This document shows positions 35,040 through 64,000 of a stretch of DNA of 64,000 nt, in pieces. Origin of the DNA: Pseudolabrys sp. Its GTDB lineage: Bacteria > Pseudomonadota > Alphaproteobacteria > Rhizobiales > Xanthobacteraceae. The position numbers and the translations under genes are program-made. Position 1 is the first letter of the stretch. The number at the start of each line of letters is the position of its first letter. The notes beneath the pieces were generated by a model, which worked only from the letters and a program-made list of their open reading frames with translations, was not told where the DNA came from and ran no database searches. The stretch is from assembly GCA_030655215.1 (NCBI GenBank), contig JAURVZ010000018.1, positions 1 through 64,000 of the forward strand, in the 5' to 3' direction.

Positions 35040-35110
35040 TTATTTCATCCCCGGAAAACTGCCCGCGTGCTGCGGAGCTTTGTTTTCCGGGGTGTTTTAC
35101 GACAAAGATT

Positions 35111-36553: not shown

Positions 36554-36577
36554 GTCATCTCTCCCACATAGGCACTG

Positions 36578-43753: not shown

Positions 43754-43756
43754 CGC

Positions 43757-45034: not shown

Positions 45035-45038
45035 AGTG

Positions 45039-46898: not shown

Positions 46899-48766
46899 TT
46901 ATCCATCGCAATCACAGTGTCAGGCAGCGGCGTCGCATAAAGCTGCGCGGCGAGCGCAGCGCGGCTGGCCAATACAGCGCGCTGATTGATCGAACCCTTG
47001 TCGGTCATCTCGGCTTTGTCCAGCGAGGGCGGCTCTGCCATCAGCAACACGCGTATCACCCGCATCGACGAGCCCTGGCCCGGCGCGAATGAGGTGAGCA
47101 ACTCCTTGAACTTCGCACGCACGCTTCCCGCCTCGACGATTGCGGCAGCCGAAGCATCGGCGCCAAGCCGGGCCAATTTGCGGCAGGCCTCAACGTCCGG
47201 AAAAATCAGCGCCGCCACATCGTCCTTGTCGGCGCCGGCAAAAACGGCGTCGCGCACATAAGGCGCGAAGTGATCGACGAAACGCGCGCGCAAAGGCCCG
47301 GTGCTGACCCATGTGCCGGAGGTCAGCTTGAAGTCTTCGGCCAGACGGCCATCGAACAAAAGTCCTTTGCCCGGATCGTCCGGGTCGGCGAACTTCAGCG
47401 CATCGCCGATCTTGTAGAAGCCTTCGCTGTCAAAAGCCTCGCGTGTCTGCGGCTCCTGCCGCCAATAGCCCGGCGTGATCAGCGGCCCGCGCAGGCGCGC
47501 TTCCAGCTTGCCTTCGTTCGGCACCAGCTTCAGCTCGACGCCGGGGAACGGCACGCCGATATTGCCGGCGCGGTCGGCGTCCCATGTGCAGGCGAGCGCG
47601 GACGGCGCCGTCTCGGTCGAGCCGAGCGACGACAGGAAGATGACGCGCTCGCCGGTCGCCTCGACCGACAGGGCGGTCAGTTCATCCCACGTCGTCTGGT
47701 TGAGGCTGGCACCGGCGTAGAACAGCACCTTCAGTTTGCTGAAGAAGTTATTGCGCAACACTTCGTCGGCGCGGAAATGCGCAATCAGCGCCTCGTAGCC
47801 TTTCGGCACGTTGAAATAGATCGTCGGCGCGATGTCGCGCAAGTTACGCGCTGTCTTCGGCACGCCCGGCGGCGTCGGATTGCCGTCGTCGATATAAAGC
47901 GAGCCGCCATTCATCAGCACCAGATTGAAATTGTGGTTGCTGCCGAACGTATGGCTCCATGGCAGCCAGTCGACGACAACGGGCGGCTCGTCGCGCACGA
48001 AAGCGAAGCCGGACGAGATCATCTCCTGGTTAGAGCACAGCATGCGGTGCGTGTTGATCACCGCCTTCGGCGTGCCGGTCGAACCGGAGGTGAAAAGGAA
48101 TTTGGCGATCGTGTCCGGCGTCACCTTGTGGTGTGCGGCGGCGACGCTGTCGGCATCTTCATCGCCGAGCAGATCGGCGAACATTGTCATCGGCCGGTCG
48201 CCGAGCGGGTTCTGCGCCACGACAAGCTCGATGTCGTCCGGCACGGTGGCATAGAGCGCGCGGGCGAACGGCCCGCCATCGGCGGCGAACACCATGCCGG
48301 GCGTGAGAAGTTCGACGATCATGCGCAATTTGCCGAAGTCACTCGAAATCAGCGAATAGGCCGGCGAGATCGGCGCATAAGGAATGCCGACAACCATCGC
48401 GGCGAGCGCGAGTAGCGCATGCTCAATGCTGTTGCTGGAGATGATGACGATCGGCCTTTCCGCCGACAGGCCGCGGCGCAGCAGCGCGGCGCCGATGCGT
48501 TGCACGGCGTTATGCGTCTGCGCATATGTATAGGTGCGCCACTGATCCTTTGCGTCGCGCTGCGCCAGAAAGATGCGGTCCGGCGCGGCCTTGGCCCAGT
48601 GGTCGAGCGGTTCGCTTATCTTGCTGTGATAGGAGGCCAGCGGCTGCGCCGCCGTCATATAAATGGTGCCGTCGCTGCGCCGGTTGAGCACGGAGTCGAA
48701 CGCGCCCAGCCGCACAGGGCGTAGCGGCGCGGTGGTCGGTTGTGCCATGCTTGTTTGCAGCGGCAT
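46895..48766 (-). CDS. fcs: feruloyl-CoA synthetase
   Basis: A 623-aa ATP-dependent ligase converting ferulate and related hydroxycinnamates to CoA thioesters. The P-loop LFTSGSTGTPKAV (about residue 222), GSTETAPSALA motif and the C-terminal LMAEPPSLDKAEMTDKGSINQR are typical of Fcs. It is the first gene of the minus-strand cluster; GGGACGAG precedes the ATG, and the palindrome at 48783-48807 lies just upstream. The next gene begins inside its stop codon (ATGA). High-confidence family assignment, but the exact acyl preference cannot be read. Confidence 0.93.
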   Translation of the reverse strand: MPLQTSMAQPTTAPLRPVRLGAFDSVLNRRSDGTIYMTAAQPLASYHSKISEPLDHWAKAAPDRIFLAQRDAKDQWRTYTYAQTHNAVQRIGAALLRRGLSAERPIVIISSNSIEHALLALAAMVVGIPYAPISPAYSLISSDFGKLRMIVELLTPGMVFAADGGPFARALYATVPDDIELVVAQNPLGDRPMTMFADLLGDEDADSVAAAHHKVTPDTIAKFLFTSGSTGTPKAVINTHRMLCSNQEMISSGFAFVRDEPPVVVDWLPWSHTFGSNHNFNLVLMNGGSLYIDDGNPTPPGVPKTARNLRDIAPTIYFNVPKGYEALIAHFRADEVLRNNFFSKLKVLFYAGASLNQTTWDELTALSVEATGERVIFLSSLGSTETAPSALACTWDADRAGNIGVPFPGVELKLVPNEGKLEARLRGPLITPGYWRQEPQTREAFDSEGFYKIGDALKFADPDDPGKGLLFDGRLAEDFKLTSGTWVSTGPLRARFVDHFAPYVRDAVFAGADKDDVAALIFPDVEACRKLARLGADASAAAIVEAGSVRAKFKELLTSFAPGQGSSMRVIRVLLMAEPPSLDKAEMTDKGSINQRAVLASRAALAAQLYATPLPDTVIAMDK

Positions 48767-48782
48767 CTCGTCCCTGGGATCA

Positions 48783-48807
48783 TTATTGTTGTCTTGGACA
48801 ACAATAA
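48783..48807. promoter_or_regulatory. fcs operator, perfect palindrome
   Basis: Perfect 11-bp arms TTATTGTTGTC and GACAACAATAA around a TTG spacer, immediately upstream of the ribosome site of the first fcs gene. The core matches a second site at 51751-51773. Such TTGTC-N3-GACAA symmetry is typical of sites for GntR- or related dimeric regulators; no such regulator gene is in the window. Confidence 0.75.
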
Positions 48808-48848
48808 CCCGCGGCGGCGGTTTGCCTCAAGCTAAAAGGGCTTTTGCA

Positions 48849-49568
48849 ATGGGAAGATGGGGCGCGATTTTGTTGTTGTGCGCCTGCGTTCCGGCTGCGG
48901 CGAACGAGCTGGAACCGCCGCCGGCAACCTATCCGAAGGTCGCGGTGCGGGCTGAAACGCTAGACGGCTTCGTGCCCACCGGCTGGCGGCTGGAAAAGTC
49001 CGTTACCGGCGACCTCAATGGCGATGGCCGCCCGGATGCTGTGCTGATCCTGCGCGACAGTGATCGAAATAAAATTCTCGATCGCAATCTGCCGAACACG
49101 TCGCCCTTCGACACCAACCCGCGCATTCTCGCCGTTGTCTTCGCCGATGATAAAGGTGGCTATGCGCTGGCGCTTGAGAACCACACCTTCATCGAGCGCA
49201 CCACCGATCCGTTCCAGCAGGATCCGCTCGATCCGAACGGCGTGCAGGAAGGCGAGGTGGCGATCAAGAACGGCACGTTGCGGATGACGCTCGCTTACTT
49301 CAGCGGCAATATGGGCCGCATGACTTATACATTCCGCTTCCAGAACAAGCGGTTTGAACTGATCGGCTATGACCGCGTCGATGTCGAGCGCAACAGCGGT
49401 GTGATGAGTGACCTAAGCATCAACTATTCAACGCGGCAGGTGGTACGGAAGAAGGGGCATATCTCTGACGATGGTGAGAAGGTGACGCGGAGCAAATTGC
49501 CGAACAAAGCGATGCTGACGTTGCAGCAGATCGGTGATGGCTTGGCGTTTCGGCCAGTGCCCGAATAA
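48849..49568 (+). CDS. exported protein with FG-GAP/EF-hand-like repeat
   Basis: A 239-aa protein of unknown function. The N terminus is a signal peptide or possible lipoprotein signal (GRWGAILLLCACVPAAAN; a lipobox-like LCAC is present). Near residue 55 the sequence DLNGDGRPDAVLILRD matches the calcium-binding VCBS/FG-GAP-type loop (D-x-N-x-D-G-x-x-D). The rest is beta-rich (SGNMGRMTYTFRFQN). No domain with activity is recognised. It lies divergent to the fcs gene and converges with the enoyl-CoA hydratase gene. The chosen start at 48849 avoids overlapping the operator. Confidence 0.75.
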   Translation: MGRWGAILLLCACVPAAANELEPPPATYPKVAVRAETLDGFVPTGWRLEKSVTGDLNGDGRPDAVLILRDSDRNKILDRNLPNTSPFDTNPRILAVVFADDKGGYALALENHTFIERTTDPFQQDPLDPNGVQEGEVAIKNGTLRMTLAYFSGNMGRMTYTFRFQNKRFELIGYDRVDVERNSGVMSDLSINYSTRQVVRKKGHISDDGEKVTRSKLPNKAMLTLQQIGDGLAFRPVPE

Positions 49569-50372
49569 TCACTCCGGCCGCACCACCTTATTCGCCCGGC
49601 CCTCAAGGAAGGCGGTCAATCGGCTCTTCGCCTCAACATCCGCCTGCGCGATCGACGAAATCAAAGACTCCACCGCATAGCCGCTGCGCGGGTCGATCTC
49701 GGCGATGCGCGGCAGAATATGGGTGATTGCGAAGTTGGTCAGCGGCGTGTTGCCGGCAATGCGCTCGGCCAAAGCGAGACCTTTGGCGAAGCCTTCGCCC
49801 GGCTCGGTCAAATACGTCGACAGCCCCATCGCCTGACCGTCCTCGGCGGAATAGGTGCGCCCCGTCAGCATCATGTCCATCATGCGCGCAACTCCGATCA
49901 GGCGCGGCACGCGCACCGAGCCGCCGCCGCCGACATAAATGCCGCGGCTGCCTTCTGGCAGGCCGTAATAAGTCGATCGTTCGGCGACGCGCACATGCGT
50001 TGCCGCGGCCAGTTCCAGCCCGCCGCCGACAACTGCGCCATGCATGACGCAAACGACCGGCACCTTGCCGAACTGAATCTTGTCGAACACGCGATGCCAC
50101 ATGCTGGAATGCGCGATGCCCTGGCGGATATCGCGTTCCTGCAATTCGCTGAGATCAAGCCCGGCGGAAAAGTGATCGCCTTCGCCATGCAGAACGACGG
50201 ATGCAATGTCATCCGGCAGCGAGGTGAAAAACGTCTCGAGGCCGAGCACTGTGGTGTCGTCGATGGCATTGCGCTTCTGCGGCCGCGCCAATCTTATGAT
50301 GGCGACCTTGCCGCGCCGCTCAGCGGCGAGCGACGAGGGCAGCTTGATATCCAACGCTTCCGAAGAACTCAC
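49569..50372 (-). CDS. ech: enoyl-CoA hydratase/isomerase family (feruloyl-CoA hydratase-like)
   Basis: A 267-aa crotonase. Both catalytic glutamates are conserved: the first in GGGLELAAATHV and the second in YYGLPEGSRGIYVGGGGS; the oxyanion-hole segment GDHFSAGLDLSEL is also present. These predict hydration of an enoyl-CoA, such as feruloyl-CoA, rather than only isomerase activity. An AAGGAG 9 nt upstream of the GTG at 50372 decides the start; the longer in-frame ATGs would add a nonhomologous tail. The gene lies between the binding-protein gene (91 bp) and the convergent exported protein. Confidence 0.88.
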   Translation of the reverse strand: MSSSEALDIKLPSSLAAERRGKVAIIRLARPQKRNAIDDTTVLGLETFFTSLPDDIASVVLHGEGDHFSAGLDLSELQERDIRQGIAHSSMWHRVFDKIQFGKVPVVCVMHGAVVGGGLELAAATHVRVAERSTYYGLPEGSRGIYVGGGGSVRVPRLIGVARMMDMMLTGRTYSAEDGQAMGLSTYLTEPGEGFAKGLALAERIAGNTPLTNFAITHILPRIAEIDPRSGYAVESLISSIAQADVEAKSRLTAFLEGRANKVVRPE

Positions 50373-50463
50373 GGGGCAAATCTCCTTACGGGCCGCCGCC
50401 TCGTTGCAAGGCGGCGGCGTCTTGTCGATCATGTCGCTGGAAGCGCGACCGCGCAACCAATCG

Positions 50464-52375: not shown

Positions 52376-53236
52376 ATGGCGCGAATTACCACACTCTCCG
52401 AGGCTATCGCCGACGCTGTCCATGACGGCGATACGATTGCGCTGGAGGGCTTTACCCACCTTATTCCGCATGCCGCCTGCCACGAGATCATCCGCCAGGG
52501 CCGCAAGAACCTCACTTTGATCCGCATGACGCCGGATCTGGTGTACGACCAGATGATCGGCATGGGCTGCGTTTCCAAGCTGGTGTTTTCATGGGGTGGT
52601 AATCCGGGCGTCGGCTCGCTGCACCGGTTCCGCGATGCGGTCGAAAACGGCCTGCCGCACAAACTGGAGCTGGAAGAGCATTCGCACGCCGCCATGGCCA
52701 ATGCCTATGAAGCCGGCGCGGCCGGCCTGCCGCTCGCGGTTTTCCGCGGTTACATCGGCGGCGACCTGCCCAAGGTGAACCCGAAGATCAAACGCATCAC
52801 CTGCCCATTCACCGGCGAGGAACTGGCCGCGATTCCTTCGCATCGTCCCGACGTTGCCGTCATCCACGCCCAGCGCGCCGACCGTGCCGGCAATGTGATG
52901 ATCGAAGGCGTGCTCGGCGTGCAGAAAGAAGCCGTGCTCGCCTCGAAGCGCCAGGTGGTGACGGTCGAGGAGATCGTCGACGAGCTGCCGCAGCGCAGCC
53001 TGAACGCCGTGGTGCTGCCGCACTGGACCGTCGGCAACGTCGTTGCCGTGCCGGGCGGCGCGTTCCCTTCCTATGCGGCGGGCTACTACCCGCGCAACAA
53101 CAGCTTCTACAAGAAGTGGGACGACATCGCCAAAGACCGCGACACATTCGCGGCCTGGATGAAAGAAAACGTGCTGGATAAGGGCCCCGAGGCCTTCGCC
53201 CAGTATGCGCGCAAACATCAAGCGGCGGCGGAGTAA
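52376..53236 (+). CDS. catI: 3-oxoadipate CoA-transferase subunit A (CatI type)
   Basis: A 286-aa subunit of a glutaconate-CoA-transferase-type enzyme moving CoA from succinyl-CoA to 3-oxoadipate. The sequence corresponds closely to CatI of Pseudomonas: GFTHLIP near residue 25, TLIRMTPDLVYDQMIG, SWGGNPGVGSLHR, and VNPKIKRITCPFTGEEL. The length matches CatI (about 282), not the shorter PcaI type (about 230). GGGAAG precedes the ATG. First of a five-gene plus-strand run; 5 bp separate it from subunit B. Confidence 0.92.
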   Translation: MARITTLSEAIADAVHDGDTIALEGFTHLIPHAACHEIIRQGRKNLTLIRMTPDLVYDQMIGMGCVSKLVFSWGGNPGVGSLHRFRDAVENGLPHKLELEEHSHAAMANAYEAGAAGLPLAVFRGYIGGDLPKVNPKIKRITCPFTGEELAAIPSHRPDVAVIHAQRADRAGNVMIEGVLGVQKEAVLASKRQVVTVEEIVDELPQRSLNAVVLPHWTVGNVVAVPGGAFPSYAAGYYPRNNSFYKKWDDIAKDRDTFAAWMKENVLDKGPEAFAQYARKHQAAAE

Positions 53237-53241
53237 TAACA

Positions 53242-54012
53242 ATGGCCGATTACAAACCAGCCGAGATGATGACCATTGCCGCGGCGCGTTCGCTGAAGAA
53301 TGACGACATTTGCTTTGTCGGCATCGGCCAGCCGTCCGCCGCCTGCAATCTCGCGCGCCTGACGCACGCCCCCGACATCACGTTGATCTATGAATCCGGC
53401 ACGCTGGCGACCAAGCCAACCGTGCTGCCTTTGTCGATCGGCGACGGCGAGTTGTGCGAGACCGCGCTGACCACGGTGTCGGTGCCGGAAATGTTTCGCT
53501 ACTGGCTGCAAGGCGGCCGCATCAAGGTCGGCTTCCTCGGCGGCGCGCAGATCGACAAATACGCCAATCTCAACACCACGGTGGTCGGCCCTTATGACAA
53601 GCCGAAGGTGCGTCTGCCCGGCGCCGGTGGCGCGCCGGAGATCGCCACATCATGCGGCGAAATCCTCATCATCATGGCGCAGGGCAAGCGCGCCTTCGTT
53701 GAGAAGCTCGATTTCGTCACTTCGATCGGCCACGTCACGGGCGGCGACTCTCGCGCCAAGCTCGGCGTCAAGACCAAGGGCCCGGTCAAGCTGATCACCG
53801 ACATGGCGGTGTGGGAGCCGGATCCGGTGACCAAGGAAATGACGGTCGTTTCGATCCATCCCGGCGTTACTCGCGAGCAGATTCAGGAAAACACCGGCTG
53901 GCCGGTGAAGTTCGCCGCGCATGTGAGCGAAACGCCGGCGCCGACCGCCAAAGAACTCGAAGTGCTGCGCGAACTGCACGCGCGCACCAACCGCGCGCAC
54001 GCGGCAGCTTAA
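53242..54012 (+). CDS. catJ: 3-oxoadipate CoA-transferase subunit B (CatJ type)
   Basis: A 256-aa subunit carrying the catalytic glutamate, probably Glu51 in LIYESGTLATKP (by analogy with the beta subunit of glutaconate CoA-transferase). Other family segments are GFLGGAQIDKYANLNTT and GGDSRAKLGVKTKGPVKLITDM. Pairs with CatI; together they give 3-oxoadipyl-CoA, the substrate of the next gene product. No PcaIJ-type genes are present in the window. Confidence 0.92.
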   Translation: MADYKPAEMMTIAAARSLKNDDICFVGIGQPSAACNLARLTHAPDITLIYESGTLATKPTVLPLSIGDGELCETALTTVSVPEMFRYWLQGGRIKVGFLGGAQIDKYANLNTTVVGPYDKPKVRLPGAGGAPEIATSCGEILIIMAQGKRAFVEKLDFVTSIGHVTGGDSRAKLGVKTKGPVKLITDMAVWEPDPVTKEMTVVSIHPGVTREQIQENTGWPVKFAAHVSETPAPTAKELEVLRELHARTNRAHAAA

Positions 54013-54022
54013 GGACAAGACG

Positions 54023-55231
54023 ATGCGTGATGTATTTATCTGCGATGCCGTTCGCACGCCGATCGGCCGCTATGCCGGTTCGCTCGCCAAGGTGCGCGCC
54101 GACGATCTTGCCGCGATTCCGATCAAGGCCTTGATGGCGCGCAATCCGAAGGCCGATTGGGACAAGCTTGAGGAAGTCTTCTACGGCTGCGCCAACCAGT
54201 CCGGCGAAGACAACCGCAACGTCGCCCGCATGGCGTTGCTGCTCGCCGGCCTGCCGGTTTCTGTGCCGGGCATCACTCTCAATCGTCTGTGCGCGTCCGG
54301 CCTTGATGCGGTCGGCACTGCTGCCCGCGCCATTGGCGCCGGCGAAATGGAATTCGCCATTGCCGGCGGCGTCGAGTCGATGACCCGCGCGCCTTACGTT
54401 CAAGGCAAGGCGCAGGAAGCCTTCGGCCGCGGCACCGAACTGTTTGATACGACCTTGGGCTGGCGCTTCATCAACCCGCTGATGAAGAAGCAGTATGGCG
54501 TCGATACGATGGGCGAAACCGGCGAGAACGTCGCCGAGCAATTCCAGGTGACGCGCGCCGATCAGGACGCTTTCGCGGTGCGCTCGCAGCAGAAGGCCGG
54601 CAAGGCGATTGCCTCGGGCTTCTTCAAGAAAGAGATCGTTCCGGTCGACATCGCCGGCCGCAAGGGCGAAGTCGTCAAGGTCGATACGGATGAACATCCG
54701 CGTGGCGACACGACCGTCGAAGGCCTCGCCAAGCTCAAGACCATCTTCCGCGATCCCGGCACGGTCACCGCCGGCAACGCCGCCGGCATCAATGACGGTG
54801 CTGCCGCGATGATCCTCGCCTCGGCTGAAGCGGTAAAGGCTTACGGCCTGACGCCGCGCGCCCGCATCCTCGGTATGGCGTCCGCCGCCGTGCCGCCGCG
54901 CATCATGGGCATTGGCCCGGTGCCGTCGACGCAGAAGCTGATGGCGCGCCTCGGCCACAAGATCGCCGACTACGACCTGATCGAACTCAACGAAGCCTTC
55001 GCCTCGCAGTCGCTCGCTGTGCTGCGGCAGCTCGGACTCGCCGATGACGCCGAACACGTCAATCCGCATGGCGGCGCCATTGCGCTTGGCCATCCGCTCG
55101 GCATGTCAGGCGCGCGGCTGGTGCTGACGGCGGTCAATGGCCTCGAAGAAAACAAGGGCAAGCTCGCGCTCGCCACGATGTGTGTCGGTGTTGGCCAGGG
55201 CGTGTCGCTCGCTCTCGAACGCGTTCAATAA
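54023..55231 (+). CDS. pcaF: 3-oxoadipyl-CoA thiolase
   Basis: A 402-aa thiolase cleaving 3-oxoadipyl-CoA to succinyl-CoA and acetyl-CoA, the last step of the beta-ketoadipate pathway. Cys90 (LNRLCASGLDA) is the nucleophile; HGGAIALGHPLGMSGAR holds the catalytic His and MCVGVGQG the second Cys. The PcaF-like LGWRFINPLMKKQYG and MTRAPYVQGK segments are present, and context with catIJ settles the role. It is 10 bp after catJ and 11 bp before pcaH. Confidence 0.95.
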   Translation: MRDVFICDAVRTPIGRYAGSLAKVRADDLAAIPIKALMARNPKADWDKLEEVFYGCANQSGEDNRNVARMALLLAGLPVSVPGITLNRLCASGLDAVGTAARAIGAGEMEFAIAGGVESMTRAPYVQGKAQEAFGRGTELFDTTLGWRFINPLMKKQYGVDTMGETGENVAEQFQVTRADQDAFAVRSQQKAGKAIASGFFKKEIVPVDIAGRKGEVVKVDTDEHPRGDTTVEGLAKLKTIFRDPGTVTAGNAAGINDGAAAMILASAEAVKAYGLTPRARILGMASAAVPPRIMGIGPVPSTQKLMARLGHKIADYDLIELNEAFASQSLAVLRQLGLADDAEHVNPHGGAIALGHPLGMSGARLVLTAVNGLEENKGKLALATMCVGVGQGVSLALERVQ

Positions 55232-55242
55232 GGACGGATGCA

Positions 55243-55956
55243 ATGTCGCTGATTTATCCCAAACAGAGCCTCGAGAATTTTCCGGCGCATCTGACGCCCG
55301 GCTACAAGAGCACGATCAAGCGCTCGCCCTCGAAGCCGCTGATGATCGTGCCGTATACGCTCACCGAACTGAGCGGGCCGGTTTACGGCCATGACACAGT
55401 GCAGGAAGGCGACAATGATCTGACCAAGCAGCACGCCGGCGAGCCACTTGGCGAACGCATCGTCGTGCACGGCCATGTGCTCGACGAAGACAAGCGCCCA
55501 GTGCCGAACGCGCTGGTCGAACTATGGCAGGCCAATGCCTGCGGCCGTTATGTTCATAACGTCGACCAGCATCCGGCGCCGCTCGATCCGAACTTCACCG
55601 GCGCCGGCCGCACCGTCACCGACGACAAGGGCTATTACAAATTCATCACCGTGAAGCCGGGCGCCTATCCGTGGGGCAACCACCACAATGCCTGGCGGCC
55701 GAACCACATCCACTTCTCTGTGTTCGGCCACTCGTTCCTGTCGCGTCTGGTTACCCAGATGTATTTCCCGGGCGACTATCTGTTCCCCTATGACCCGATC
55801 TTCAATTCGGTCACCGACGAGAAGGCGCGCAACCGCATGGTTGCGTCGTTCGATCTGGAAAACACTGTCCCGGATTGGGCCTTGGCCTTCCGCTTCGACA
55901 TCGTCCTGCGCGGCCGCGAAGCGACCCCGCTCGATAATGACGACCACGATCACTAG
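55243..55956 (+). CDS. pcaH: protocatechuate 3,4-dioxygenase beta subunit
   Basis: A 237-aa iron-containing subunit of the intradiol dioxygenase that cleaves protocatechuate to 3-carboxy-cis,cis-muconate. The four iron ligands are conserved: Tyr in CGRYVHN, Tyr in GAYPWGN, and the two His in PNHIHFS, with the spacing YPW...NHIH of the family. The N terminus contains YPKQSLENFPAHLTPGYKST. GGACGG lies before the ATG at 55243, chosen over longer in-frame starts within pcaF. Followed 15 bp later by pcaG, which completes the enzyme. Confidence 0.96.
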   Translation: MSLIYPKQSLENFPAHLTPGYKSTIKRSPSKPLMIVPYTLTELSGPVYGHDTVQEGDNDLTKQHAGEPLGERIVVHGHVLDEDKRPVPNALVELWQANACGRYVHNVDQHPAPLDPNFTGAGRTVTDDKGYYKFITVKPGAYPWGNHHNAWRPNHIHFSVFGHSFLSRLVTQMYFPGDYLFPYDPIFNSVTDEKARNRMVASFDLENTVPDWALAFRFDIVLRGREATPLDNDDHDH

Positions 55957-55971
55957 AACCGGACCGAACAC

Positions 55972-56583
55972 ATGTCAGAGATTACGCCCTCACAAACCGT
56001 CGGTCCGTTCTTCGCCTATGGCCTCACGCCGAAGGGCCGCTGCGACTGGGACCCGAACGGCAGCTACGCCTGGAAGAACTCGATCGAGTCGAACCTGATC
56101 ACGCCGGACGCGTCCGGCACGCGCATTCGCATCGAAGGCATCGTGCATGACGGCGACAATCTGCCGATCAACGATTGCATGCTCGAGATCTGGCAGGCTG
56201 ACAGCCAGGGCCGCTACGCCGATCCGCGCGCAGGCGCCAAGTCGAATGCGCAGTTCAAGGGCTTCGGCCGCTCGGCGACCGACAAAGCCGGATTGTTTGT
56301 GTTCGACACGATCAAGCCGGGTTCGGTAGCTGGTCCCGGCGGCAGGCCGCAGGCGCCGCATATCATGCTCGGCATCTTCTCGCGCGGCATGTTGCGGCAG
56401 GTCTATACGCGGCTGTATTTCGACGATGAGGTCGGCAACGCCGCCGATCCGATCCTCACCATTGTGCCCGCTGATCGCCGCGGCACGTTGATCGCGAAGA
56501 AGCAGGCCGGCACCGATCCGGCCGTGTACCGCTTCGACATCCGCGTCCAGGGCGGCGACGAGACGGTGTTTTTCGATATTTAG
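55972..56583 (+). CDS. pcaG: protocatechuate 3,4-dioxygenase alpha subunit
   Basis: A 203-aa alpha subunit, structurally related to PcaH but lacking the iron ligands as expected. It begins with TPSQTVGPFFAYGLTP, typical of PcaG, and contains MLEIWQADSQGRYA and GRPQAPHIMLGIFSRGMLRQ. With pcaH it forms the (alpha-beta)-type dioxygenase. Last of the plus-strand pca/cat run; the next gene begins after a repeat element. Confidence 0.95.
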   Translation: MSEITPSQTVGPFFAYGLTPKGRCDWDPNGSYAWKNSIESNLITPDASGTRIRIEGIVHDGDNLPINDCMLEIWQADSQGRYADPRAGAKSNAQFKGFGRSATDKAGLFVFDTIKPGSVAGPGGRPQAPHIMLGIFSRGMLRQVYTRLYFDDEVGNAADPILTIVPADRRGTLIAKKQAGTDPAVYRFDIRVQGGDETVFFDI

Positions 56584-56675: not shown

Positions 56676-56850
56676 CAATCCGGCCTTTATTACACGACTA
56701 GAGTAATTGGGCCATTGCCCACTATCCCGGCCCAACTTCCGCACTACCATTTTGTGGTTGACCCACTCTCCTGACCTTGGTTCGCTGATACCTGCGCGAT
56801 GGCCATCAGAGCCGACAAAAACGCGCGAGGAAACGCCAAGGACAAGACCC

Positions 56851-58260
56851 ATGAACGAGGTCATTCTCCAGGAGATCAGCGACTTTTGCCGCCAGCGCGG
56901 TCTGGCCGAGTCGACGTTCGGCCGCCGCGCCGTCAATGACGGCAAGCTCGCCAGCCGCCTGCGCAATGGCGGCCGCATCACCACGGACACGCTGGAGCGC
57001 ATTCGCTCCTTCATGTCGCAAACCGACGACGCCGCGCCCGTGCGCCGCCGCGTCCTGTTCGACGCGCCATCGGCGCAATCGCTTCCCGTCATCAAAATGC
57101 AGGCGCCGCCAATGGCCTCGAACCAGACGGATGAAGATCCGCAACGCAACTTCCGTTTCTTCGACAACCGTCAGAAATATCTGCTGTTCGTGAATACCTG
57201 CAGCGAGAAGTGGGAAGTCGCGCAACGCGTCAGCCTCGAGCTCGGCAACATTCATCCGCGCCCGCCGGCCGTGCGCGTGTTCGATGCCGGTGTCGGCGAC
57301 GGCAGCGTGCTGGCGCGCGTCATGCGCTCGATGCACGACAAGTTTCCGACCATGCCGCATTACATCGTCGGCAAGGAGATCAGCCTCGAAGACGTGCGGC
57401 TGACGCTGGAGAAAATGCCGGACCGTTTCATGGAGCATCCCTCCACGGTCATCGTGCTGACCAATCTCGCTTATGCCGAAGCGCCGTGGCTTGCTGCCAA
57501 ATCGCTCTCCGCCGCCACCAGCATGGTGTGGAAGGAAATCGCGCTCGAGGGCAACACCTCGCATACGTTTGAGGAGCAGATCACGGCGCTTGAGCCGTTC
57601 CTGGCCGAGAGCTGGAAGGCCAAAGTGTCGCCGAAGAGCGGCAATCCCGTTTACGAGCGGCCGATCGTGCTGGTGATCTATCGCAACGATCACCGCTTTT
57701 TGCTCGATCAGGTGATCCCAAAGCCCGGCGGCGCCGTGGCCGATTACGATCTCGTCATTGCCTCACAGCCTTATCGCGCGCGCGCCTCGCTGGAGTTCAA
57801 GGCCAAGCGCGTGCTGGCGCCTTTGGCGAAAGCGCTGGGGCCGGGCGGCCGCATGATTGCGATTCAATCATATGGCAATGATCCGGGGATGCAGATCATC
57901 CACAAAGTGTGGCCGGAGGATAACCCGTTCACGCATAGCCGCCACGATTTGCTCAAGGCGACCAAGGTCGAACTGGGAGCGGCGGCGCGCGACCTGAACT
58001 TCAACGCCTATTCCGACCAGCGTTCGCTGTTCAAATACGAGATGCACACGCTGCCGTCGGAAGTGTCGTCGTCGATCGGCACGTCGACCTTGATGGCGGC
58101 GTGGAACGCGGCGGTTTACGTGGCGCAGGTCGAGGATGATCGTCTGTCCGACGTCAACAGCGACCGGCGTTTTATCGAGGCGACCAGCGATGTGCTGAAG
58201 GAGCAGGGCGGCCTCTGGTTCTACGACGAATCCTTCGTGATCTCGCGCCGGCGGGAATAG
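56851..58260 (+). CDS. HTH-like/SAM methyltransferase fusion protein, unknown function
   Basis: A 469-aa protein with no assigned function. The first ~55 residues (EISDFCRQRGLAESTFGRR then LASRLRNGGRITTDTLERIRSFM) look like a small helix-turn-helix domain related to Xre-type DNA-binding regions seen in alphaproteobacteria. From about residue 145 a methyltransferase-like Rossmann fold begins, with SAM motif VRVFDAGVGDGSVLARV (about 143-159) and a loop LVIASQPYRARASLEFK later. There is no obvious catalytic signature identifying the acceptor. AAGGAC precedes the ATG. It lies in the plus-strand run with MTHFR-like and MetE-like genes; a 4-bp gap separates it from the MTHFR-like gene. Confidence 0.6.
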   Translation: MNEVILQEISDFCRQRGLAESTFGRRAVNDGKLASRLRNGGRITTDTLERIRSFMSQTDDAAPVRRRVLFDAPSAQSLPVIKMQAPPMASNQTDEDPQRNFRFFDNRQKYLLFVNTCSEKWEVAQRVSLELGNIHPRPPAVRVFDAGVGDGSVLARVMRSMHDKFPTMPHYIVGKEISLEDVRLTLEKMPDRFMEHPSTVIVLTNLAYAEAPWLAAKSLSAATSMVWKEIALEGNTSHTFEEQITALEPFLAESWKAKVSPKSGNPVYERPIVLVIYRNDHRFLLDQVIPKPGGAVADYDLVIASQPYRARASLEFKAKRVLAPLAKALGPGGRMIAIQSYGNDPGMQIIHKVWPEDNPFTHSRHDLLKATKVELGAAARDLNFNAYSDQRSLFKYEMHTLPSEVSSSIGTSTLMAAWNAAVYVAQVEDDRLSDVNSDRRFIEATSDVLKEQGGLWFYDESFVISRRRE

Positions 58261-58264
58261 CGCC

Positions 58265-59116
58265 GTGTCGGCTTTTGCCGCATCGTTCTCCATCGAGGCC
58301 ACGCGCCCCAGTGAGCCTGAGATCGCGGCGCTGGCCGATGTGCTGGCCCCTCGCACAGCGGTCTATCTCTCCGCCGTACCGGCAATGGCGCTGGATGAGC
58401 TGGTGACCTTGGCCGCAAGCCTGCGCCGCGTTGGCCTCGACCCGGTCGCGCATATCGCCGCGCGGCGGCTTTCTAGCATCAGCCAGTTGCATGAGCTGCT
58501 GCGCGCGCTGCGCAGCGAGGCCGATATGCGGCAGTTGCTGGTGATCGGCGGCGATGTCGACGCCACCGGCCCGTTCCCCGATGCGCTCTCTGTCATCCAG
58601 AAGGGCGGCCTGCGCGACCTCGGCTTCGAGGAGATCGGCATTGCCGGTTACCCGGAGGGTCATGCCCGCATTCCGGCCGGGCGGCTGGAAGGCGCGCTCG
58701 ACGAGAAGATCGCCAGCGCCACGGCGCAGGGCCTGCGCGTCCACATTGTGAGCCAGTTTTCCTTCTCGCCGGAGCGGGTGCTCGCCTGGCTGCGCCAGTT
58801 GCGCGCCAGCGGCCTCGCCGTGCCGGTCAAGGTCGGCATGGCCGGCCCGACCAGCGTCCCCGCGCTGCTGCGCTATGCCAAACGCTGTGGCGTCGCCGCC
58901 TCGCTGCGCGGGATGGTGTCCGGCGTCGGCGCCGGGCTGATCGGTCATGTCGGCCCCGGCCGCATGATCGAGGCGCTGGCCGCGGCCGACAATCTCGGCG
59001 ACATCGCCCCGCACTATTTTTCGTTCGGCGGGGTGGTTGAAACCGCGCGTTTTGCATGCGATGCCGCTCGCGGGACGCACAGCTTTAGCCATGCTATGGC
59101 ACCAAATAACGCATGA
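58265..59116 (+). CDS. methylenetetrahydrofolate reductase homologue (atypical)
   Basis: A 283-aa TIM-barrel protein of the MTHFR/MetF superfamily, expected to bind FAD and (methyl)tetrahydrofolate. It has FSIEATRP near residue 8 (position of the catalytic Glu of MetF), PVAHIAARRL near 60, LLVIGGDVDATGPFP near 93 (MetF has ALRGD there) and the GIAGYPEGH segment. The replaced motif implies divergence from canonical MetF and resembles variants found with aromatic O-demethylation or other one-carbon systems. The start is a GTG at 58265, with little room between it and the preceding stop, so the two are translationally coupled. Confidence 0.78.
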   Translation: MSAFAASFSIEATRPSEPEIAALADVLAPRTAVYLSAVPAMALDELVTLAASLRRVGLDPVAHIAARRLSSISQLHELLRALRSEADMRQLLVIGGDVDATGPFPDALSVIQKGGLRDLGFEEIGIAGYPEGHARIPAGRLEGALDEKIASATAQGLRVHIVSQFSFSPERVLAWLRQLRASGLAVPVKVGMAGPTSVPALLRYAKRCGVAASLRGMVSGVGAGLIGHVGPGRMIEALAAADNLGDIAPHYFSFGGVVETARFACDAARGTHSFSHAMAPNNA

Positions 59117-59152
59117 CCCGCCGCCACGGCGGATGACGCACCGGAGGACTTG

Positions 59153-60265
59153 ATGACCCAGAGAACCACCCCGCCATTCCGCGCCGACCAGGTCGGCAGC
59201 ATCTTGCGCACCAAGGCCATTCATGAGGCCCGCGCCAAGCATGAGAAGGGCGAGATCACCGACGCTCAGCTGACCGAAGTTGAGAACGCCGAGATCATCA
59301 AGGTCATCAAGAAGCAGGAAGAAGTCGGCCTCGAGGCCATCACTGACGGCGAATATCGCCGCTCGTTCTGGCACTACGATTTCTACGGCATGCTGGACGG
59401 CGTCGAGGTCGTGAAAGCCGACCACGGCATTCAGTTCCAGGGCATGCAGACCCAGATGAAGGTGCTGAAGGTCACCGGCAAGATCGGCTTCTCGGCCAAT
59501 CATCCGATGCTCGAGCACTTCAAGTTCATCAAGAAGCACGTCACTAAGACGCCGAAGATGTGCATTCCGTCGCCGACCGTGATGCACTTCCGCCTTGAGC
59601 CGGGTTCGGTTGCGCCGTCGGCCTATCCGAACCGCGATGCGATCTTCGACGATCTCGCCATTGCCTATCAGGACGCGATCAAGGCGTTCTATGCCGCCGG
59701 CTGCCGTTACTTGCAGTTCGACGACACCGCTTGGGCCTATCTCTGCTCCGAGGCTGAGTTGAAGAAGGCGCGCGAGCGCGGCCTCGACGTCGATCATCTG
59801 CAGGACACCTACACCAAGTGCATCAACAAGGCGCTCGAGGCGAAGCCAAAGGACATGGTCATCACCACGCATGTCTGCCGCGGCAACTTCCGTTCCACCT
59901 TCATCTCGTCGGGCGGTTATGAGCCGGTGGCCCAGAGCCTGCTGGAGAAGTGCAATTACGACGGCTACTTCCTCGAATACGACACCGACCGCGCCGGTGG
60001 TTTCGAGCCGCTGCGCTTCCTGCCGAAGGGCAACAAGATCGTTGTGCTCGGCCTCGTCTCATCGAAGGTTGGCGCGCTTGAGCCGACCGCCGACATCAAG
60101 AAGCGCATCAAGGAAGCCGAGAAGTTCGTCGCGCTCGAGCAGCTTGCGCTGTCGCCGCAGTGCGGCTTCGCCTCGACCGAGGAAGGCAATGTTTTGGCCG
60201 ATGACGAACAGTGGGCCAAGTTGAAGGAGATCGTCGAGATCTCGAAGGATGTTTGGGGGAAGTAG
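59153..60265 (+). CDS. MetE C-terminal-like zinc methyltransferase, copy 1
   Basis: A 370-aa protein corresponding to the catalytic C-terminal domain of cobalamin-independent methionine synthase, without the N-terminal half. Zinc ligands map to THVCRG (His and Cys), FLEYDTDR (Glu) and LSPQCGF (Cys). RADQVGSI and DGEYRRSFWHYDF line the substrate side. The family includes core-MetE methionine synthases and alkyltransferases such as epoxyalkane:CoM transferase; which applies is not decidable. GGAGG lies 5 nt before the ATG at 59153. First of at least five tandem paralogues; a repeat element separates it from the second. Confidence 0.85.
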   Translation: MTQRTTPPFRADQVGSILRTKAIHEARAKHEKGEITDAQLTEVENAEIIKVIKKQEEVGLEAITDGEYRRSFWHYDFYGMLDGVEVVKADHGIQFQGMQTQMKVLKVTGKIGFSANHPMLEHFKFIKKHVTKTPKMCIPSPTVMHFRLEPGSVAPSAYPNRDAIFDDLAIAYQDAIKAFYAAGCRYLQFDDTAWAYLCSEAELKKARERGLDVDHLQDTYTKCINKALEAKPKDMVITTHVCRGNFRSTFISSGGYEPVAQSLLEKCNYDGYFLEYDTDRAGGFEPLRFLPKGNKIVVLGLVSSKVGALEPTADIKKRIKEAEKFVALEQLALSPQCGFASTEEGNVLADDEQWAKLKEIVEISKDVWGK

Positions 60266-60275
60266 GGGTTCGCTG

Positions 60276-60411
60276 CCACCCTCCCCTGGAGGGGGAGGGT
60301 CGGTGCGCGAAGCGCGCCGGGGTGGGGTGATCTAAGGAAAATAGTTCACCCCCTCCCGACCATCGTCGCTTCGCGCCGACGGTCGACCTCCCCCCTCCAA
60401 GGGGAGGTGAA
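60276..60411. repeat. intergenic inverted repeat, family B (copy 3)
   Basis: A ~135-bp element with CCACCCTCCCC...GGGGAGGGTCGG and GTCGACCTCCCCCC...GGGGAGGTGAAG hairpins facing each other, between MetE-like copies 1 and 2. Similar to the elements at 3027-3154 and 13541-13673. Confidence 0.8.
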
Positions 60412-60435
60412 GAAAAAACGCCATAGGGAGTGACT

Positions 60436-61539
60436 ATGCCCCAGCGCACGTCGCCGCCGTTCCGCGCCGACCATGTCGGCAGCCTGTTGCGTCCCGCCGC
60501 GCTGAAAGAAGCGCGCGCCAAATTCGCCGCTGGCGACATCACCGCCGCCGCGCTTGCCGACATCGAAGACCGCGAGATCATCAAGGTCATCCGGAAGCAG
60601 GAAGAGATCGGCCTGAGACTTGCGACCGATGGCGAATTCCGCCGCTCCTGGTGGCATTTCGATTTCTTCCGCCACTTGCAAGGCGTCGACTTCGTTGAAG
60701 CGCCGCCGATCAAATTTCATGGCGTTGTCACCAGGAGCGAAGCGGTCATGATCAACCGCAAGGTCGACTTCGCCGGCCATCCGCATCTCGACCACTTCAA
60801 GTTCCTCAAGGATCACTGCAGCGTCACGCCGAAGATGACGATCCCGGCGCCGTCGACATTTCACTTCCGGCAGGGCCGGGCGATGATCAGCACGGATGCC
60901 TATCCCGATCTCGACGCCTTCTTCGACGACGTCGGCAAGACCTGGCAGAAGGCGATCCGCGCTTTCTATGATGCCGGTTGCCGCTATCTGCAACTCGACG
61001 ACACGGCCTGGGCGATGATTTGCGATCCGAAGGAGCGCGAAGGCTCCCGCGCGAGGGGCGATGATCCGGATGCCTTGCCCGAAATCTATGCGCGCGTCAC
61101 CAATGCCGCGCTCAAGGACAAGCCCGCCGATATGGCGGTGACCATGCATTCCTGCCGCGGCAATTTCCGCTCGACCTGGATCGCGCAAGGCGGCTACGAA
61201 TTCGTCGCCGAGCAATTGCTCGGCAACACCAGTCTCGACGGCTACTTCCTCGAATATGATTCGGATCGCGCCGGCGGCTTCGAGCCGCTGCGCTACTTCC
61301 CCAAGGGCAACAAGCAGCTCGTGCTCGGCCTCGTCACATCGAAGAGCGGCACGCTGGAGTCGAAAGACGACATCAAGCGCCGCGTCGACCAAGCGACGAA
61401 ATACGTCGCGCTCGACCAGCTTTGCCTGTCGCCGCAATGCGGCTTCTCCTCGACCGAGGAAGGCAATGTGCTGTTCGAAGACGAACAATGGGCCAAGCTG
61501 CAAATGATCGTCGAACTATCAAAGGAAATCTGGAAATAA
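60436..61539 (+). CDS. MetE C-terminal-like zinc methyltransferase, copy 2
   Basis: A 367-aa paralogue. Zinc ligands are MHSCRG (His, Cys), FLEYDSDR (Glu) and LSPQCGF (Cys). The substrate-pocket segment reads DGEFRRSWWHFDFF and the acidic residue motif QLDDTAW. GGGAG lies 5 nt before the ATG. Its TAA stop overlaps the ATG of copy 3 by one base (TAATG), so expression is coupled. More similar to copy 5 than to 3 and 4 in the WWH/FRRS segment. Confidence 0.85.
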   Translation: MPQRTSPPFRADHVGSLLRPAALKEARAKFAAGDITAAALADIEDREIIKVIRKQEEIGLRLATDGEFRRSWWHFDFFRHLQGVDFVEAPPIKFHGVVTRSEAVMINRKVDFAGHPHLDHFKFLKDHCSVTPKMTIPAPSTFHFRQGRAMISTDAYPDLDAFFDDVGKTWQKAIRAFYDAGCRYLQLDDTAWAMICDPKEREGSRARGDDPDALPEIYARVTNAALKDKPADMAVTMHSCRGNFRSTWIAQGGYEFVAEQLLGNTSLDGYFLEYDSDRAGGFEPLRYFPKGNKQLVLGLVTSKSGTLESKDDIKRRVDQATKYVALDQLCLSPQCGFSSTEEGNVLFEDEQWAKLQMIVELSKEIWK

Positions 61540-62645
61540 TGACTTTGCGTACCAAGCCGCCGTTCCGCGCCGACCATGTCGGCAGTCTGCTCCGCCCTGA
61601 GGCCCTGAAGAAGGCCCGCGCCGAGCGCGAAAGCGGCGCGATCACCGCCGAAGCGCTCAAGCAGATCGAAGACCGCGAGATCGCCGCCGTCATCAAGAAG
61701 CAGGAAGATATCGGCCTGAAGAGCGTCACAGACGGCGAATTCCGCCGTGCCTTCTGGAATTACGATTTTCTTGGCGAACTCGACGGCGCCGAGGCCTATC
61801 TCGGCGAACGCAAGATCAAGTTCGAAGGCGTTAATCCGAAGCCGATGATGCTGCGCGTCACCGGCAAGCTCGGCAGCTTCTCTGGCCACCCGATGCTGGA
61901 GCATTTCAAATTCGTCAAAGAGCACACGCGCGCGACGCCGAAGATGACGATCCCGTCGCCGTCGTCGCTGCACTTCCGCTATGGCCGCGATGCTGTGCCG
62001 GGGAGCATCTATCCGGACATGGGCGAGTTCTACCGCGATCTCGGCCAGACCTACCGCAAGGCGGTGCGCGGCTTCGCCGATGCCGGTTGCCGTTACTTGC
62101 AGCTCGACGAGGTGAATTTTACTTATCTCTGCGATCCGAAGCTGCGCGAGCAGGTCGCGCGCCGCGGCGACGATCCTTCAAGCCTGCCGATGATCTATGC
62201 CGACATGATCAACGCAGCGATGTCGGATATCCCGGATGACATGACCATCGCCATGCATCTGTGCCGCGGTAATTTCCAGTCGACCTTCGTCGCCTCCGGC
62301 GGCTATGAGCCGGTGGCGGAGATCCTGTTCAACACGATCAATGTGCACGGCTACTTTATGGAATACGATTCCGAGCGCGCCGGCGGCTTCGAACCGCTGC
62401 GATTCGTGCCGAAGGGAAAGACCGTGGTGCTTGGCCTCGTCACGTCGAAGTCGGGCAAGCTCGAATCGAAAGATGAGTTGAAGCGCCGCATTGCTGAAGC
62501 CGCCAAGTTCATTCCGCTGGAGCAGCTTTGCCTGTCACCGCAATGCGGCTTCGCTTCGACCGAGGAGGGCAACATCCTCGCCGAAGGCGAACAGTGGGCC
62601 AAGCTGCGTATGATTGTCGAATTGTCAGAAGAAGTGTGGGGGTAA
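61539..62645 (+). CDS. MetE C-terminal-like zinc methyltransferase, copy 3
   Basis: A 368-aa paralogue. Zinc ligands are MHLCRG, FMEYDSER and LSPQCGF. The substrate-side segment is DGEFRRAFWNYDFLG and QLDEVNFTYLCD, where copies 1 and 2 have DDTAW instead of DEVN. The segment RATPKMTIPSPSSLHFRYG links the barrel strands. It is 4 bp from copy 4. Function presumed the same chemistry with a different substrate. Confidence 0.85.
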   Translation: MTLRTKPPFRADHVGSLLRPEALKKARAERESGAITAEALKQIEDREIAAVIKKQEDIGLKSVTDGEFRRAFWNYDFLGELDGAEAYLGERKIKFEGVNPKPMMLRVTGKLGSFSGHPMLEHFKFVKEHTRATPKMTIPSPSSLHFRYGRDAVPGSIYPDMGEFYRDLGQTYRKAVRGFADAGCRYLQLDEVNFTYLCDPKLREQVARRGDDPSSLPMIYADMINAAMSDIPDDMTIAMHLCRGNFQSTFVASGGYEPVAEILFNTINVHGYFMEYDSERAGGFEPLRFVPKGKTVVLGLVTSKSGKLESKDELKRRIAEAAKFIPLEQLCLSPQCGFASTEEGNILAEGEQWAKLRMIVELSEEVWG

Positions 62646-62649
62646 TTCA

Positions 62650-63759
62650 ATGAGCGCGCGCAGCAAGCCACCGTTTCGTGCCGATCATGTCGGCAGTTTG
62701 CTGCGCAGCGCAGCGTTGAAGCAGGCGCGGGCGGATCGCGACAGCGGTGCGATCACGCCGGCGGCGCTGAAGGAGATCGAGGACCGCGAGATCAAGATCC
62801 TGATCGGCAAGCAGGAAGCGGTCGGCCTCAAGTCGATCACCGATGGCGAGAACCGCCGCAAGTCGTGGCAGACGGATTTCATTTCAGCGCTGCCCGGCAT
62901 CGAGACGGTGCCGTTCGAACGCAAGGTCAAATTCCAGGGCGGGGTGCAGCCGCAACAGGTGCTGACCCGCGTCGCGCGCAAGCTCCGCGATTTCGACACG
63001 CATCCGATGATCGAGCATTTCAAATTTGTGCAGGCGAATACCAAACAGACCGCCAAGATGACGATCCCGTCGCCATCGGCGGTTCACTTCCGCGATGGCC
63101 GCGACGCGGTGCCTGAGTCCGTGTACCCGGACATCAACGAATTCTACAATGATCTCGGCCAGACCTATCGCAAGACGGTACGCGCCTTTGCCGATGCCGG
63201 TTGCCGCTATTTGCAGCTCGACGAGGTCAACCTGACGTACCTTTGCGACGACAATTTGATCGCCAAGGTCAAGGCGCGCGGTGAGGACCCCGCCGCTTTG
63301 CTCAAGGGCTATGCGGCGATGATCAACGCATCAATGTCGGACATTCCGGACGACATGACGATTTCGATGCATCTCTGCCGCGGCAATTTCCGCTCGACGT
63401 TTATTGCCTCGGGCGGCTATGAGCCGGTCGCTGATGCGCTGTTCAACACCATCAATGTGCATGCCTATTTCATGGAATATGACTCGGAGCGCGCCGGCGG
63501 ATTCGAGCCGCTGCGCTTCGTGCCGAAGGGCAAGATGGTGGTGCTCGGCCTGGTGACGTCGAAGACCGGGACGCTCGAATCCAAAGACGAATTGAAGCGC
63601 CGCATCGACGAAGCGTCCAAGTTCATTCCGCTCGATCAGCTCTGCCTGTCGCCGCAGTGCGGCTTTGCCTCGACGGATGAAGGCAATGTGCTGGCGGAAG
63701 ACGAGCAATGGGCCAAGTTGCGCATGATCGTTGAATTGGCGGACGAGGTTTGGGGTTAG
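62650..63759 (+). CDS. MetE C-terminal-like zinc methyltransferase, copy 4
   Basis: A 369-aa paralogue. Zinc ligands are MHLCRG, FMEYDSER and LSPQCGF. The substrate-side segment is the most divergent: DGENRRKSWQTDFISALPG replaces the DGEF/YRRSWWH pattern; QLDEVNLTYLCD resembles copy 3. It stays 3 bp from copy 5. Copies 3 and 4 are the closest pair in the array. Confidence 0.85.
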   Translation: MSARSKPPFRADHVGSLLRSAALKQARADRDSGAITPAALKEIEDREIKILIGKQEAVGLKSITDGENRRKSWQTDFISALPGIETVPFERKVKFQGGVQPQQVLTRVARKLRDFDTHPMIEHFKFVQANTKQTAKMTIPSPSAVHFRDGRDAVPESVYPDINEFYNDLGQTYRKTVRAFADAGCRYLQLDEVNLTYLCDDNLIAKVKARGEDPAALLKGYAAMINASMSDIPDDMTISMHLCRGNFRSTFIASGGYEPVADALFNTINVHAYFMEYDSERAGGFEPLRFVPKGKMVVLGLVTSKTGTLESKDELKRRIDEASKFIPLDQLCLSPQCGFASTDEGNVLAEDEQWAKLRMIVELADEVWG

Positions 63760-63762
63760 TTC

Positions 63763-64000
63763 ATGAACGCACGCACCAAGCCTCCTTTCCGCGCCGACCA
63801 TGTCGGCAGCCTGCTGCGTCCCGCGGCGTTGAAAGAGGCGCGCGCCCTGTTCGCCGCCGGCAAGATTGACGCCGCGGCGCTGAAGGCGGTCGAGGACCAC
63901 GAGATCCAGCGCATCATCAGGAAGCAGGAAGAGGTCGGGCTGCGGTCGGTCACCGACGGCGAGTTCCGCCGTTCCTGGTGGCATCTCGACTTCCTCTGGG
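63763..64000 (+). CDS. MetE C-terminal-like zinc methyltransferase, copy 5 (cut by window end)
   Basis: The first 79 residues of a fifth paralogue, starting ATG at 63763 (MNARTKPPFRADHVGSLLRP). The segment DGEFRRSWWHLDFL is close to copy 2. The rest lies beyond the window, so the zinc ligands cannot be checked. Confidence 0.8.
   Translation, partial: MNARTKPPFRADHVGSLLRPAALKEARALFAAGKIDAAALKAVEDHEIQRIIRKQEEVGLRSVTDGEFRRSWWHLDFLW

Follow-up and report, generated by a model that had tools for sequence, protein, structure and literature searches.

Tandem MetE-C-type zinc methyltransferases in protocatechuate loci of Pseudolabrys, with a tentative role in the demethylation of methoxylated aromatics

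A contig of Pseudolabrys sp. (GenBank assembly GCA_030655215.1, contig JAURVZ010000018.1) carries, downstream of its protocatechuate genes, five consecutive genes (M1-M5) for MetE-C-type zinc methyltransferases, i.e., relatives of the catalytic domain of the methionine synthase MetE. We analysed bases 1-64000 of this 150-kb contig (64,000 nucleotides, hereafter the window; the genome is 80% complete), and the link between the array and aromatic catabolism is well supported. Given that the synteny is conserved in 39 other genomes, an array assembled by chance is excluded. We tentatively favour, as a reading still some way short of probable, that M1-M5 are donor-specific methyltransferases which pass methyl groups from methoxylated aromatics to homocysteine, and that a short methylenetetrahydrofolate-reductase (MTHFR)-like protein (MTHFRl) encoded just upstream recovers the one-carbon (C1) units.

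Aryl O-demethylation is a bottleneck in the use of lignin, and its known routes are oxygenases, the tetrahydrofolate (THF)-dependent enzymes LigM/DesA and corrinoid systems. If our reading is true, soil bacteria would possess a new route for methoxyl carbon, via a MetE-C-type array in their protocatechuate loci, and a widespread family labelled homocysteine methyltransferase in databases would acquire a function together with a methyl donor; the array lends itself to a concrete test, its five paralogs being alike at the acceptor site and unlike on the donor side. The wider proposition, i.e., a further cofactor-light class of aromatic O-demethylases in which MetE-barrel zinc enzymes carry methyl groups from methoxyaromatics directly to homocysteine and need neither folate nor corrinoid nor oxygen, as a donor-specific array that feeds the C1 pool via methionine/S-adenosylmethionine (SAM) or via methyl-THF and a reverse MTHFR in soil bacteria lacking glycine cleavage, we consider rather unlikely. 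No description of such an array, or of MetE-C-type proteins in aromatic demethylation, was found in the open-access literature (subscription papers and preprints fall outside this scope), and the accessible portions of PMC12366255, PMC12997858, PMC6974649, PMC13289028 and PMC12366328 hold nothing on the NF005085 family in aromatic demethylation.

According to the favoured reading, M1-M5 would be zinc methyltransferases of the PRK06520 (YxjG/YxjH) type, working without folate and having a common acceptor but different donors. The acceptor would most likely be homocysteine, bound as a zinc thiolate, and the donors most likely the methoxyl groups carried by aromatic acids from lignin, or by the CoA esters of these acids, en route to protocatechuate; with transfer presumed to run in this direction, the array would serve as a set of substrate-specific O-demethylases. 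The CaiB-type CoA transferase, acyl-CoA dehydrogenase (ACAD) and MaoC proteins encoded after the array (together with an SDR in many relatives) could handle the acyl side chains, the ring would be opened by Pca, or by LigABC in relatives, and the methyl group would leave as methionine and/or methyl-THF, the route from methionine to folate being a presumed step. MTHFRl could then oxidise methyl-THF to methylene-THF, supplying C1 units where most genomes of the genus show no GcvP.

The five methyltransferases

All five genes lie on the forward strand (M1, 59150..60265; M2, 60430..61539; M3, 61539..62645; M4, 62650..63759; M5, 63763..64869). The starts of M3 and M4 are inner ATG codons, their listed frames opening further upstream, and the window ends within M5, which is complete on the contig up to base 64869. 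The initial annotation had described at least five tandem MetE-C-type copies, overlapping or closely spaced and with a repeat only between the first two, and this is borne out: the copies overlap by 1 nt or lie 3-4 nt apart, except for a 164-nt gap between M1 and M2 (60266..60429) containing a GC-rich inverted repeat whose arms are 26 nt long (60277-60302 and 60384-60409, 81% complementary); a 24-nt probe close to the repeat sequence matched nowhere else in the window. Against the curated, full-length NF005085/PRK06520 model (cut-off 313 bits) M1-M5 score 569.5, 565.8, 538.2, 505.4 and 525 bits, respectively (i.e., 505-570 bits), and are thus members of this family. The first counts of PRK06520 candidates (up to 68 per genome) were unscored and carry no claim of dozens of copies; eight proteins pass at E 1e-60 in each of two genomes that were re-run.

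M1-M4 are proteins of 368-370 aa with PF01717 (the catalytic domain) as their sole Pfam match, so the folate-binding N-terminal half of MetE is absent, as had been noted. The paralogs share 53-74% identity with each other and 18-22% with E. coli MetE and XecA, and among solved structures Listeria 1ypx comes closest (425 bits with M1). In an alignment numbered after E. coli MetE, all five copies keep H641, C643, E665 and C726, which we take to be the MetE zinc ligands (the His-x-Cys, Glu and Cys pattern already recognised in the initial annotation), as well as S433, E484 and D599, presumably the positions that hold homocysteine. Trp561, by our assumption the folate-stacking residue of MetE, is not kept and the loop there has an insert, which makes a folate donor used in the MetE manner unlikely, as far as these residues tell.

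The same residues bear on the idea, raised at the outset, of thiol-alkyl transfer of the epoxyalkane:coenzyme M kind, whereby a thiol would be added to aromatic or alkyl electrophiles and CaiB, ACAD and MaoC would degrade the resulting thioether acid. XecA (Xaut_4865) is likewise a folate-independent, single-domain zinc alkyltransferase (376 aa) of the same superfamily, with 18-21% (ca. 20%) identity to the array proteins, and CoA-dependent beta-oxidation genes come after the array in genus loci reaching that far. However, the one XecA sequence used departs from the array at two of the three homocysteine-site positions, having Asn and Arg where all five copies have Ser and Glu, and XecA-type residues are absent from the array. 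Membership of M1-M5 in the epoxyalkane:coenzyme M group was therefore rejected, and we regard such a role as very improbable.

Across 188 aligned rows (181 of 212 distinct proteins and 7 added rows), conservation at the seven acceptor and zinc positions reaches at least 98.5%, and 37 positions are fixed differently between the copies (at least 85% in at least four of the five groups), including 239 and 241, which flank zinc ligand H240, 274, which precedes E275, and 191-193, which follow D190 (M1 numbering). The four pocket motifs quoted earlier, DGEYRRSFW, DGEFRRSWW, DGEFRRAFW and the DGENRRKSW variant of M4, are all correct. A FastTree phylogeny of the same rows places the copies in separate groups, M1 (38 rows), M2 (36), M3 (20), M4-type (14) and M5 (29). 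Given the copies from other genera inside the M2, M4 and M5 groups, the sister position of the M3 and M4 groups and the one row (L129) in the M1 group from outside the 43 genomes of our genus sample, most of the duplications are older than the genus; the nearest relatives of M4 lie in G497 and in arrays of other genera. The dN/dS ratios are 0.09-0.16 for M1, M2, M3 and M5 (against the orthologues of G437, L228) and 0.15 for M4 (against G497), and each copy is thus under purifying selection. By tree and codon evidence, M1-M5 are old, separately maintained ortholog groups, and the earlier suggestion of a multi-substrate system fits these groups, their group-specific residues and the invariant acceptor and zinc site.

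Could M1-M5 simply be ordinary biosynthetic core methionine synthases whose copies multiplied by chance? The NCBI family name is homocysteine S-methyltransferase, and yxjH of Lactobacillus responds to methionine starvation, being co-transcribed in L. paracasei with luxS under a methionine T-box, according to the portion of PMC6004538 available to us; that protein stands outside our comparison with the array. Yet the genome has a full-length metH adjoining a canonical metF, which makes plain methionine synthases, the outcome that was to refute the initial annotation, unlikely. Furthermore, the operon is catabolic, the copies are old ortholog groups under selection, and Rfam gave no match to a riboswitch or other RNA in the window (nor in L101, L151 and L188). 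Of all the explanations discussed here, we give this one the least credence.

The array in protocatechuate loci

Our genus sample comprised 43 genomes, and 40 stretches from 39 genomes other than that of the window were read. M genes occur in 41 of the 43 and MTHFRl in 40 (E 1e-10 or better, two at only 35-37% identity), in the order pca-SAMMT-MTHFRl-(LigM, opposite strand)-(GntR)-M1..M5-(SDR)-MaoC-ACAD-CaiB, SAMMT being a conserved gene described below. The pca genes precede the array in every genus stretch reaching that far, and the number of M copies is 1-5 in the 30 genus loci counted as complete. In the window itself, the pca block (52376..56583, forward strand) consists of pcaI and pcaJ (CoA transferase subunits), pcaF (thiolase), and pcaH and pcaG (protocatechuate 3,4-dioxygenase), assigned by the Pfam families CoA_trans, Thiolase and Dioxygenase_C and by their conserved place in the genus loci.

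Outside the 43 genomes we found 11 loci with at least two M genes, nine of them tandem (L129, L154, L155, L163, L200, L248, L252, L253 and L254) and two with two or more M genes lying apart (L249 and L251). Six certainly belong to other genera of the family (L248 and L254 to one genus, L252 and L253 to another, and L249 and L251). Protocatechuate ring-cleavage genes lie near seven of the 11, two of these also with LigM: pca in L129, pcaIJF and LigABC in L154 (LigA and LigB by NCBIfam, LigC by similarity and position), LigM and pca in L251, LigM and LigABC in L252/L270, and LigABC in L248/L268, L253/L271 and L254/L269. No protocatechuate genes were seen in the stretches examined of L155, L163, L200 and L249, the last tested for Pca, LigM and VanA only. 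As pca genes are found in some loci and LigABC in others, multi-copy arrays track protocatechuate whichever way its ring is cut. The SDR, MaoC, ACAD and CaiB genes, as far as the stretch reaches, also follow eight of the nine tandem arrays outside the 43 genomes, the short contig L200 being the one without them.

Within the genus, the locus also houses a 467-aa GCV_T protein that we identified as LigM by its match to the vanillate/3-O-methylgallate O-demethylase 5x1i (E 9e-211). LigM is present in 16 of the 43 genomes, each with a copy at the array locus, and gave no match at E 1e-60 in the 80%-complete genome of the window. VanA (at least 60% identity) occurs in 10 of the 43, only once at the array locus, with VanB (G497), and was not found in the incomplete assembly of the window's genome. 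MTHFRl and M genes without LigM or VanA of at least 60% identity characterise 17 of the 43 genomes, eight of which are at least 95% complete. Thus, the earlier hypothesis that the array handles methyl groups from methoxylated aromatics has gained strong genomic support, with pca genes, array and MTHFRl at one locus of the genus and LigM in 16 of 43 genomes; this support covers the association itself.

The main rival reading starts from the same genes: LigM, VanAB or another demethylase would act on the aromatics, the M proteins, as homocysteine methyltransferases acting afterwards, would pass the methyl groups of methyl-THF (or of another carrier) on to methionine and SAM, and the folate pool would be balanced by MTHFRl. 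LigM at the locus in those 16 genomes, an MTHFRl presumably of the type that partners LigM, the kept homocysteine site, and the M, SAMMT, metK and ahcY genes that stand in a row or nearly so in two Bradyrhizobium loci all agree with such a methyl sink. On the other hand, the array is kept in the 17 genomes without LigM or close VanA (the search covering these two demethylases), one donor leaves several old paralogs unexplained, the proteins lack both the folate-binding half and Trp561, and metF-metH is already in the genome. We judge this reading rather unlikely.

By plain count, one-copy arrays make up 8 of 14 loci with LigM vs. 1 of 23 without. We did not use the corresponding Fisher test (p 6e-5), as it covers only 30 loci, takes no account of relatedness and omits five LigM-bearing loci truncated at contig ends. 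Replacement of LigM by the array was rejected, the association being gone in a tree-aware test. The minimum number of changes on the tree is seven for LigM and three for the one-copy state, so LigM has been gained or lost, at least seven times, largely independently of the array. This turnover argues against a simple replacement and also against the array as a mere downstream partner of LigM.

One-carbon supply and the evidence on the other side

MTHFRl (58265..59116, forward strand) scores 23.7 bits against PF02219, just under the cut-off of 24, and matches the solved MTHFR 7xg9 at E 8.6e-49 vs. ca. 1e-6 for classical MTHFRs; the MTHFR-like gene of the initial annotation is thus real. We take 7xg9 to be the MTHFR of Sphingobium SYK-6 (S6MTHFR). 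In SYK-6, methyl-THF arises from vanillate through LigM and is oxidised by S6MTHFR, which takes the place of the glycine cleavage system that this organism lacks (PMC12585457; see also PMC6888825). Distant MTHFR homologues of Acinetobacter and Pseudomonas are mentioned, their role left unassigned, in the consulted part of Price et al. (PMC7857596). Among 199 sampled genomes of the order, 58 encode MTHFRl homologues, and the eight MTHFRl neighbours that were scanned are all GCV_T, pterin-binding or homocysteine S-methyltransferase proteins, although these eight were picked by eye, not at random, from the flanks of 19 of 30 loci, several of the 19 having no such neighbour. GcvP exceeds the Pfam cut-off in 10 of the 43 genus genomes and not in the other 33, including that of the window, in assemblies that are partly incomplete; the genus may thus largely lack glycine cleavage, like Sphingobium SYK-6.

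The gene immediately upstream of MTHFRl, SAMMT (470 aa; 56848..58260, forward strand), had been called SAM-methyltransferase-like. The gene is kept, with 78-93% identity across genus loci. Its name is supported only by a glycine-rich SAM-type motif, DAGVGDGSVL, recognised by eye, as was the helix-turn-helix-like N-terminus; no Pfam, NCBIfam or PDB sequence match was found, and neither a single-sequence structure model (pLDDT 37) nor one from 26 sequences (pLDDT 61, no PDB match at E 0.001 or better) gave a usable fold match. SAMMT is possibly a SAM-binding regulator or a methyltransferase of the methyl cycle. It adjoins MTHFRl in the window, L025 and L051, and separates M from metK-ahcY in two Bradyrhizobium loci.

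Several observations weigh against donor-specific demethylation by the array. To our knowledge, no enzyme moves an aryl-ether methyl group straight to a zinc thiolate. Copy-specific residues are only weakly gathered around the catalytic ones (6 of 37 within two residues vs. 2.5 expected, p 0.03), and the enrichment is not significant at ±4 or ±6 residues in this sequence-distance test. The absence of LigM and VanA does not mean that no other demethylase is present, since G400, G334 and G491 encode distant VanA-like proteins (37-43% identity only) and the search did not extend to P450 or distant Rieske enzymes. After correction for relatedness, LigM and array size show no signal in four independent pairs, a weak test, and the array therefore does not clearly substitute for LigM. 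MTHFRl was not found in the stretches around arrays outside the genus, so the folate link is not universal: MTHFRl is a feature of the window's genus, unlike the pairing of multi-copy arrays and protocatechuate genes. Finally, Pca, LigM or VanA accompany only 7 of 66 named single-copy loci outside the genus (LigABC was tested in a subset), and the single-copy loci read in detail lie beside LIV/Urt-type transporter genes or metK-ahcY.

The transporter genes would fit a use linked to transport, in which some compound methylated at S, N or O would be imported and give up its methyl group, in place of an aromatic ether; the presence of the genes in aromatic loci would then reflect the joint supply of both kinds of compound by root exudates. 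Five-gene LIV/Urt-type ABC transporters lie beside M in Bradyrhizobium, Ferrovibrio, Rhodoplanes/Pseudorhodoplanes and Klebsiella loci: in two Bradyrhizobium loci (L151 and L158) M stands with a five-gene LIV-type transporter, SAMMT, metK and ahcY, and Ferrovibrio has VanA-GntR-VanB and then a LIV transporter and M. Other PF01717 proteins of the window's genome are also encoded, by eye, near LIV or TRAP transporter genes. Against this, seven of the 11 multi-copy loci outside the 43 genomes have protocatechuate genes, of two ring-cleavage pathways, the window operon is contiguous with pca genes, and LIV-type binding proteins can serve aromatic acids too. We hold a transport-linked role to be distinctly unlikely. 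All these varied contexts fit homocysteine as the common acceptor with a changing donor.

Related systems and flanking genes

The closest relatives by curated score are the PRK06520/NF005085 proteins themselves (e.g., Listeria 1ypx), which form the same subfamily as the array proteins and have the same zinc and homocysteine-site residues; those of Listeria and Klebsiella share 49-54% identity with the array, and YxjG/YxjH of B. subtilis are presumably of this type as well. The array differs from them by its five diverged copies in one catabolic operon. An experimentally proven methyl donor was found in the open-access literature for no PRK06520 member. The LigM-S6MTHFR module of SYK-6 (ligM-metF-ligH) is apparently similar in its short MTHFR beside demethylation and protocatechuate genes and in supplying C1 units without glycine cleavage, and sister genomes of the window carry LigM at the array locus; the 80%-complete genome of the window, in contrast, has no LigM match and has the MetE-C-type array instead.

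MesA-MesD, as presented in the accessible text of Price et al. 2021 (PMC7857596), likewise consist of the MetE catalytic domain alone, are folate-independent and use homocysteine as acceptor. The array differs by its several copies per operon, in a genome where biosynthesis is already covered by metH, and bears little resemblance to 3rpd, the stand-alone MetE-C structure used for this comparison (35 bits vs. 425 for 1ypx). In Agrobacterium fabrum, the SpG8-1b region combines feruloyl-CoA genes, the LigM-type Atu1420, the MTHFR-like Atu1418 and a GntR regulator; the portion of PMC7797058 at hand describes no MetE-C-type array there, and the 10-bp operator of Atu1419 is absent from the window, up to one mismatch allowed.

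Beyond the window, the same contig continues on the forward strand with MaoC (64879-65745), ACAD (65750-66919) and the CaiB-type CoA transferase (66951-68075). From SAMMT onward the intergenic spacing is 33 nt or less, or a 1-nt overlap, apart from the M1-M2 gap, and with such tight spacing the run from SAMMT to CaiB is likely to form a single transcript. On the reverse strand, upstream of the pca block, aromatic acyl-CoA genes (42992..50456; SDR, thiolase, two PRK12582 acyl-CoA synthetases and crotonase among them, by NCBIfam) diverge from the operon, constituting a hydroxycinnamate-type cluster that also includes TRAP transporter genes (assigned by eye). In this divergent aromatic cluster, an aldehyde dehydrogenase gene lies between two genes that resemble, by eye, thiamine diphosphate enzymes (33348-38335).

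The window's genome contains five further stand-alone MetE-C-type genes of other subfamilies (L021:6898-7932, L022:6439-7461, L023:6121-7302, L019:7637-8779 and L020:7252-8421), some of which adjoin, by eye, LIV or TRAP transporter or FAD monooxygenase genes. A different MetE-C-type protein (motif DGEQRRESYSNRF) is encoded within or beside the M genes of two multi-copy loci outside the 43 genomes (L154:11170-12213 and L251:3055-4098). In Microbacterium rhizomatis, three LigM-like genes (41-58% identity) lie within ca. 7 kb of a single M gene (L188:12771-18148). In Klebsiella, an M relative directly precedes genes annotated as urtABCDE, both on a chromosome-sized record (L264:7998-14757) and on a plasmid (L265), and this Urt-type transporter may carry a methyl donor rather than urea.

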